Part shown: piece by piece, positions 25,078 through 45,866 of the stretch
Position numbering within the stretch: the first letter of the stretch is position 1
Layout of the letters: each line of letters opens with the position of its first letter
Source of the DNA: Macromonas nakdongensis
GTDB taxonomy: Bacteria; Pseudomonadota; Gammaproteobacteria; Burkholderiales; Burkholderiaceae_C
Length of the DNA stretch: 64,000 nt
Direction of reading: 5' to 3'
NCBI RefSeq assembly: GCF_002837145.1
Contig: NZ_NWMV01000003.1
Location: 1-64,000, forward strand
Notes under the pieces: model-generated
What the model was told of the DNA's origin: nothing
The model's database searches: none
The model's input: only the letters and a program-made list of their open reading frames with translations
Made by a program: the position numbers and the translations under genes

Positions 25078-25162
<85 letters not shown>

Positions 25163-25319: not shown

Positions 25320-25404
<85 letters not shown>

Positions 25405-41417: not shown

Positions 41418-41527
41418 CCTGTCCGGCAGGCCCGTCACCGGGTCTGCTTTCCCTCAGACGAATCTATTGCCTGCCAAGCCCGCCGCTTACCGGTGGCGGG
41501 GGAGGGCAGCAAAAAGAGGAATCGCAC

Positions 41528-43261: not shown

Positions 43262-44071
43262 ATGCACGACGGTACCGATCCCTTGAGCTCCCACGACACG
43301 GCCCACAAAAACCCCCACAAGGGCATCTACATGTTGCCCAATATGATCACCCTGGCAGCGCTGTTTGGCGGCTTTTACGCGGTGGTCATGGCCATGAACG
43401 GCCGTTTCGACCTGGCCACCGTGGGCATTTTCGTGGCCATGGTGCTCGACAGCCTGGACGGCCGCGTCGCCCGCCTGACCAACACCCAGAGTGCCTTTGG
43501 CGAGCAGATGGACTCCCTGTCCGACATGGTGTCCTTCGGCGCTGCGCCGGCCCTGATCGCCTACGAATGGGCACTGCGCGACCTGGGGCGCTGGGGCTGG
43601 ATCGCGGCCTTTGTGTACTGCGCCTGTGCGGCCCTGCGGTTGGCGCGTTTCAACGTGAACACCGGTGTGGTGGACAAGCGTTACTTCCAGGGCTTGCCTT
43701 CGCCCGCGGCGGCGGCACTGGTGGCCGGTTTCATTTGGCTGGCGACCGAGGCCGGCTACGACGGCCTGAGCCTGGAATGGCCGATGTTCGCCCTCACCCT
43801 CTACGCGGGTTTGACGATGGTGACCAACGTGCCCTTCTACAGCTTCAAGGACCTGAGCCTGAAGAAGAGCGTGCCGTTCGCGGCCATCGTGCTGGTCGCG
43901 CTGGGCATCGCCATCATCAACATCCACCCGCCGACCGTGCTGTTCGGGCTGTTTGTGGGCTACGGTCTGTCGGGCTATGCCGTCTATGGCTGGCGCAAGG
44001 CCAAGGGGCGTCCGGCCAGTGTGGTCAGCACCTCGACCGACGAACCCGACGAGCGCGGCCTGCACGACTGA
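43262..44071 (+). CDS. pssA: CDP-diacylglycerol-serine O-phosphatidyltransferase
   Basis: 269-residue multi-pass enzyme making phosphatidylserine, precursor of phosphatidylethanolamine. The CDP-alcohol phosphotransferase motif is complete: Asp66, Gly67, Ala70, Arg71, Gly80, Asp84 and Asp88 in DGRVAR and GEQMDSLSDMV. About eight membrane segments. This is the Bacillus-type integral membrane PssA rather than the peripheral E. coli type. Its place between ilvC and leuA is conserved in betaproteobacteria although the pathway is unrelated. Confidence 0.95.
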   Translation: MHDGTDPLSSHDTAHKNPHKGIYMLPNMITLAALFGGFYAVVMAMNGRFDLATVGIFVAMVLDSLDGRVARLTNTQSAFGEQMDSLSDMVSFGAAPALIAYEWALRDLGRWGWIAAFVYCACAALRLARFNVNTGVVDKRYFQGLPSPAAAALVAGFIWLATEAGYDGLSLEWPMFALTLYAGLTMVTNVPFYSFKDLSLKKSVPFAAIVLVALGIAIINIHPPTVLFGLFVGYGLSGYAVYGWRKAKGRPASVVSTSTDEPDERGLHD

Positions 44072-44137
44072 GGCCGCGCCATCGCCTGTGCCCAAGCCGC
44101 TCATGGTTTTTCTCGATCGGGCGGCGCACGGCTTTGT

Positions 44138-44145
44138 GATACATT
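44138..44145 (+). promoter_or_regulatory. -10-like element of the leuA leader
   Basis: GATACATT, starting 15 bases before the leader-peptide ATG at 44153. Transcription from here would place the leader start codon within a few bases of the mRNA 5' end. Confidence 0.4.
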
Positions 44146-44152
44146 GACAGCC

Positions 44153-44212
44153 ATGAACTTCGCACGCGCTTTCCTGCTACTGGCCCTATGCCGACACGGG
44201 CAGGTGGACTAG
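44153..44212 (+). CDS. leuL: leuA leader peptide (attenuation peptide)
   Basis: A 19-codon ORF ending in TAG. Residues 8-12 are Leu-Leu-Leu-Ala-Leu, encoded CTG CTA CTG GCC CTA; CTA is rare in the window's genes. The C-terminal end is CRHGQVD. It is followed by an intrinsic terminator and lies 112 bases upstream of leuA. This is the classic layout of ribosome-mediated leucine attenuation, in which stalling at Leu codons frees an antiterminator. Confidence 0.85.
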
Positions 44213-44267
44213 CGCGCGCTTCTTCAAACCAACGGCCCGTATGCACCCGCAGCGGGCCGTTTGTTTT
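44196..44267 (+). promoter_or_regulatory. leucine attenuator: terminator and antiterminator
   Basis: Terminator stem AACGGCCCG (44231-44239) / CGGGCCGTT (44253-44261), 13-base loop, then TGTTTT. The antiterminator candidate is ACGGGC at 44196-44201, inside the end of the leader peptide, which can pair with GCCCGT at 44235-44240 and break the terminator. A ribosome at the stop codon would cover 44196-44201 and let the terminator form; one stalled at Leu codons 44174-44188 would not. Confidence 0.8.
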
Positions 44268-44324
44268 GGACACTGCGGGGGACTTGTCAGTGCCGCCCAC
44301 GAGGCGGACCACCGGAGAACTGGA

Positions 44325-45866
<1,542 letters not shown>

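Follow-up and report, generated by a model that had tools for sequence, protein, structure and literature searches.

A conserved leader upstream of leuA in Burkholderiaceae_C, very probably a leucine-responsive transcription attenuator

The leuA locus and its leader

The DNA analyzed, here called the window, is a stretch of 64,000 nucleotides from Macromonas nakdongensis. The leuA gene, which encodes 2-isopropylmalate synthase (NCBIfam TIGR00973 leuA_bact, above cut-off), occupies positions 44325-45866 of the plus strand and is preceded by a Shine-Dalgarno sequence (GGAG) at 44314-44317. The preceding gene, pssA, lies on the same strand and ends at 44071. Rfam places an ilvH RNA (RF02993, 92 bits) at window positions 41457-41524 (+), before an ilvH-like gene of the same ilv-leu cluster. 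On the minus strand of the window, two tRNA genes (25081-25162 and 25323-25404) lie ∼240 bases apart and have the same Rfam score.

The interval between pssA and leuA contains a compact set of elements, all on the plus strand. An extended −10 promoter element (TGTGATACATT, 44135-44145) was located with the help of aligned leaders, which show no conserved −35 element. It is followed at 44153-44212 by an ORF of 19 codons plus stop that is conserved in relatives and is predicted to be translated from a leaderless RNA. The ORF reads ATG AAC TTC GCA CGC GCT TTC CTG CTA CTG GCC CTA TGC CGA CAC GGG CAG GTG GAC TAG. The codons CTG CTA CTG (GCC) CTA at 44174-44188 are the putative leucine control codons, as judged from the enrichment of CTA in leaders (below).

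Downstream of the ORF is an intrinsic terminator, whose hairpin spans 44231-44261 and which extends to 44267 with its T-rich tail. The 5′ arm, C (AACGGCCCGT, 44231-44240), is conserved and contains covarying pairs; the 3′ arm, D (GCGGGCCGTT, 44252-44261), is supported by the fold, the alignment, and the consensus fold. The U tract TGTTTT occupies 44262-44267, and a T-rich tail is found in all aligned relatives. The hairpin was not called by a simple terminator scan, probably because its loop exceeds the limit of that scan. Two segments within the ORF offer alternative pairings. The protector arm A (CCTGCT, 44173-44178) pairs with GGCAGG at 44199-44204 in the minimum free energy fold, and the antiterminator arm B (ACGGGC, 44196-44201) is fully complementary to GCCCGT at 44235-44240 within arm C. 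The fold of the leader region is better than that of shuffled sequences (z = −3.5, 0 of 200). A preliminary description of this DNA had reported the ORF with its run of leucine codons, the terminator, and the competing segment, and all three are present in the sequence. As that description also held, the antiterminator arm is inside the coding end of the peptide, in the His-Gly-Gln codons.

A further pair of segments links the terminator to the region before leuA. Segment x (CCCGCAG, 44246-44252), made up of the loop of the terminator and the edge of its 3′ arm, is complementary to the downstream segment y (CTGCGGG, 44273-44279), which lies 45 nt before the start of leuA. A block at and just 3′ of the leader stop codon, GCGCACGCG (GCGCGCGC in the window, 44213-44219), is also strongly conserved and could lengthen the protector stem in some relatives, for example at locus L036.

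Conservation, transcription start, and codon usage

For a first comparison, 80 leuA loci were taken from named genomes. Approximately two-thirds of these have a short ORF, mostly of 16-19 codons, within ∼300 nt upstream of leuA. Here the ORF takes the form M(K/N)xxxLALLLSPHGRRR, ending in a stop codon, and is followed by TAGCGCACGCG and then by a terminator around GGCCCGTATGCACCCGCARCGGGCC. The blocks GGGC, GCCCG, and CGGGC are invariant in an alignment of 47 relatives. In the consensus fold of these sequences the core is invariant and the outer pairs of the terminator carry paired changes; two pairs are changed on both sides in 12-15 sequences. The covariation sought in the preliminary description is accordingly seen in the terminator; the antiterminator pairing B:C gives none, its core hardly varying.

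A covariance model built from the relatives was searched against the genomes of the host family, Burkholderiaceae_C. At E ≤ 0.01 it matches 356 of 401 genomes and 133 of 141 genera, with some of the weaker matches covering only the terminator part or sitting at a gene start. The best 150 matches listed are all full-length, with E ≤ 1e-20. The genome of M. nakdongensis itself has one strong match (E = 3.8e-21), the next being partial (6e-4). A lack of conservation of the ORF or stems in close relatives had been named as a finding that would refute the attenuator, and the element proves to be conserved across the family. Elsewhere in the order, full-length leaders precede a synthase gene in one other family, f10 (loci L125 and L126). 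No plasmid copies of the element were found. One genome, G045, carries two full-length copies on separate contigs (C77:111321-111434 and C12:563-672).

All 36 strong model matches that were examined adjoin an isopropylmalate synthase gene. Some of these genes are of the bacterial type and others of the yeast type. The two types are not orthologous, indicating that the leader tracks the pathway. The apparent lack of the leader at the remaining third or so of the first 80 loci was not accepted as a simple absence. At several of the loci without a leader, reading the sequences by eye shows that another leuA-like gene ends immediately upstream, and at four of four other loci tested (L171-L174) the leader, a yeast-type leuA, and a bacterial leuA follow one another on one strand. 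A leuA gene that has no leader can be the second gene of such an operon.

At leuA loci in other families of the order, the gene lies behind a Leu-rich ORF of another kind, which is longer and has an LLLRPAR-like ending (L176, L178, L179, L183-L186, L188, L193, L194, L198, and L203). A C-rich stretch and hairpins often come after this ORF, and most of the hairpins have no U tract. The arrangement is possibly a second type of leucine leader with another mode of termination or a translational mode.

To characterize the promoter and the peptide, 108 distinct leaders were used. When these are aligned on the −10 hexamer, the sole strongly conserved upstream block is TGTGNTACATT, an extended −10 element with TG in 99% of the leaders. 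Because leaders entered this set only with a TAnAnT-like hexamer at roughly 4-12 nt, the conservation of the hexamer is conditioned; the TG extension was not a criterion, and its conservation is free of that condition. Five loci (L042, L095, L147, L154, and L168) have a plausible ORF but no such hexamer. The −10 element stands 6-9 nt ahead of the start codon of the leader ORF. A Shine-Dalgarno-like sequence was found before none of the 108 leader ORFs, as compared with 72 of 78 leuA starts, and the leader peptide thus seems to be without the usual ribosome landing site. The fixed spacing of the −10 element and the missing Shine-Dalgarno sequence suggest that the transcript is leaderless, probably starting at the ATG or 1-2 nt upstream of it.

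Codon usage in the leaders was compared with that in the adjoining leuA genes. Of 485 leucine codons in the leaders, 51% are CTA; of 4002 in leuA, 0.35% are. This is an enrichment of ∼150-fold, and at least one CTA is present in 107 of the 108 leaders. The rarity of CTA in the window, already noted in the preliminary description, is borne out by its four neighboring genes, where none of 145 leucine codons is CTA; two of the four in the leader are. We rejected the idea that the enrichment reflects mere pairing with a UAG stop codon, the CTA fraction being nearly equal in leaders ending in TAG, TAA, or TGA. In the Salmonella leu leader, replacement of CUA by CUG lowered the sensitivity to leucine limitation (Carter et al. 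1986, as cited in PMC1183508). A second bias concerns the glycine codon of arm B: 82 of 83 leaders use GGG there, a codon that makes up 10% of those for glycine in leuA; this GGG is invariant in all 47 aligned sequences. The GGG bias is a constraint on the RNA, inside the coding end of the peptide, and translation of the leader is under selection.

These observations bear on a simpler explanation, in which the hairpin is merely the terminator of pssA and the ORF is incidental. The hairpin does lie between pssA and leuA, with pssA ending upstream on the same strand. However, a conserved extended −10 element and a Leu-rich ORF intervene between pssA and the hairpin, the ORF has a bias at the codon level, and the leader is also found upstream of leuA homologues of another type. 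We therefore regard a simple pssA terminator as very improbable.

Alternative pairings and the extra helix

All 108 leaders have a terminator hairpin followed by a T-rich tail. Folding of the nascent RNA was modeled with the ribosome in different positions. For a ribosome positioned at the stop codon, the predicted probability of the terminator is above 0.9 in every one of the 108 leaders, in agreement with the earlier proposal that a ribosome reaching the stop would cover arm B. With the ribosome stalled on a leucine codon such that B is left free, the predicted probability of B:C has a median of more than 0.99 and exceeds 0.5 in 92% of leaders; for the leader in the window it is 0.999. Three of the four leucine codons in the window leave B free when the ribosome stalls on them. 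The leucine codon nearest to B, usually CTA, is three codons before B, and a ribosome stalled there would cover B, so a simple stall model does not suit every leucine codon.

Permutation of pairing partners among the 108 leaders showed A:B to be stronger than expected (z = 7.8, 0 of 5000). Counts from this and the other permutation tests are not strict probabilities, as the sequences share ancestry. The corresponding test of B:C in the leader set gave no excess over permuted partners (z = 0.5) and is uninformative because both sides are nearly constant. The preliminary reading of the leader as a ribosome-stalling attenuator is thus in keeping with the conserved ORF, terminator, and arm B, with the CTA bias, and with the modeling of stalled and released ribosomes, which predicts a switch. 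That reading did not include the predicted leaderless start, the extra helix, or the operons in which a second leuA lies behind the leader.

The extra helix x:y is strongly supported. Own partners were superior to permuted ones (0 of 10,000; in a second test z = 14.7, 0 of 5000), and at least seven contiguous pairs are present in 80 of 108 leaders, which contain 51 different x sequences. In an alignment of 38 leaders, 94% of cells pair and 45 cells are changed on both sides; the covariation score is 0.367, compared with 0.125 for shuffled sequences and at most 0.10 when the partner is slid, which destroys the signal. Because the 38 leaders were partly picked for clear pairing and a short spacer, cleaner evidence comes from the permutation tests.

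The median distance from segment y to the leuA start downstream of it is 42 nt when bacterial and yeast types are pooled. This segment is transcribed after the termination point and so cannot decide termination. A role of x:y as a second terminator was rejected, as a T-rich tail follows only 25 of the 80 strong helices and none is found in the window. Occlusion of the leuA Shine-Dalgarno sequence was likewise rejected, its predicted accessibility being 0.49 versus 0.43 between the states in a calculation that cannot model pseudoknots. Possible roles of the helix are a pseudoknot with the terminator hairpin or, after read-through, a refolding of the 5′ region of leuA.

The strength of x:y raises the alternative that the leader works through ribosome-controlled translation of leuA or stability of its mRNA, by way of an x:y pseudoknot and with termination secondary, as in the actinobacterial LEU element. 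The location of y before the leuA start and the T-rich tail behind fewer than a third of the strong helices would fit such a role. On the other hand, the terminator with its T-rich tail occurs in all leaders, and the accessibility of the Shine-Dalgarno sequence is little changed within the reach of that calculation. We consider this alternative unlikely.

Proposed mechanism and relation to known leucine leaders

It is highly probable, in our judgment, that the leader is a ribosome-mediated, leucine-responsive transcription attenuator of leuA. This rests on its computed parts, conservation, codon bias, A:B pairing, and folds, from which we infer the response to leucine. The extended −10 element would drive transcription from at or next to the ATG of the 19-codon peptide, and with such a start the ribosome would load on leaderless RNA. 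When leucine is plentiful, the ribosome would reach the stop codon and cover arm B, C would pair with D, and RNA polymerase would terminate at around 44267. When charged leucyl-tRNA is scarce, a ribosome stalled on the CTG and CTA codons would mask A and free B, which would pair with C before D is made; no terminator would form and leuA would be transcribed. Without translation, A:B would hide B and the terminator would form. One possible extension, which we advance only tentatively, is that the leaderless leucine attenuator of this family has a second layer, in which pairing of the terminator loop with y, as a pseudoknot or as a helix specific to read-through, also controls the escaped transcripts at translation or stability.

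No family in Rfam 15, RF00512 (Leu_leader) included, matches positions 44050-44400 at E ≤ 1, which accords with the earlier claim of a form independent of that of the enterobacterial leu leader. At the gathering threshold there was no Rfam match in eight related loci. A metabolite riboswitch in place of a ribosome sensor would also present a structured, conserved leader upstream of a biosynthetic gene, but here there is no Rfam match, the conserved structure is a simple terminator, and conservation is centered on a Leu-rich ORF that is translated and uses rare codons; a riboswitch is extremely unlikely.

In the open-access literature, leucine leaders are described in Enterobacteria, Actinobacteria, and Epsilonproteobacteria, and we found no description there of a betaproteobacterial leuA attenuator or leucine leader; the 2004 survey of proteobacterial attenuators (Vitreschak et al., FEMS Microbiol Lett) is outside that scope. 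A 2013 survey that drew on four Rfam leader families pointed to an origin of amino-acid attenuators in Gammaproteobacteria and to few transfers (PMC3766115). The present element would add a conserved leucine attenuator, absent from Rfam, across up to ∼130 genera. Its many natural variants could be used to probe how attenuation works on a leaderless RNA, how rare CUA codons come to be selected for control, and what the terminator-loop helix does.

The enterobacterial leuL leader (RF00512) shares with the present one a Leu-rich peptide, rare CUA codons, the protector, antiterminator, and terminator alternatives, and the position before leuA. Here, by contrast, there is no match to that model, arm B lies in the last codons of the peptide, the ORF is mostly of 17-19 codons with no Shine-Dalgarno sequence before it, and there is the extra helix x:y. 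The Campylobacter jejuni LeuL leader (Epsilonproteobacteria) likewise has rare leucine codons, precedes leuABCD, and gives a short terminated RNA. It is 28 amino acids long and was found via ORFs with a ribosome binding site (PMC3847290), and it is not known to have an extra helix.

The actinobacterial LEU element also combines a Leu-rich leader ORF with a conserved pseudoknot-type pairing before leuA, but its leucine codons pair with the leuA Shine-Dalgarno sequence in a base stem, whereas here there is an intrinsic terminator (PMC1262725). Furthermore, the covarying helix in our leaders joins the terminator loop to y and involves neither leucine codons nor the Shine-Dalgarno sequence, the leucine-codon region pairing with the B side. 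In Streptomyces coelicolor, mutations in the leader peptides before ilvB and leuA behaved unlike classical attenuation, as described in the same report (PMC1262725), a precedent that weighs against the present reading. A predicted start at the leader ATG has a parallel in Sinorhizobium meliloti trpL, where the RNA begins at the ATG and attenuates a biosynthetic operon (PMC7298713). That system differs in responding to tryptophan, in belonging to the Alphaproteobacteria, and in its peptide and operon, as compared with leucine and leuA here. The principle of attenuation is textbook knowledge; what appears to be new here is its breadth, the predicted leaderless arrangement, and the extra helix.
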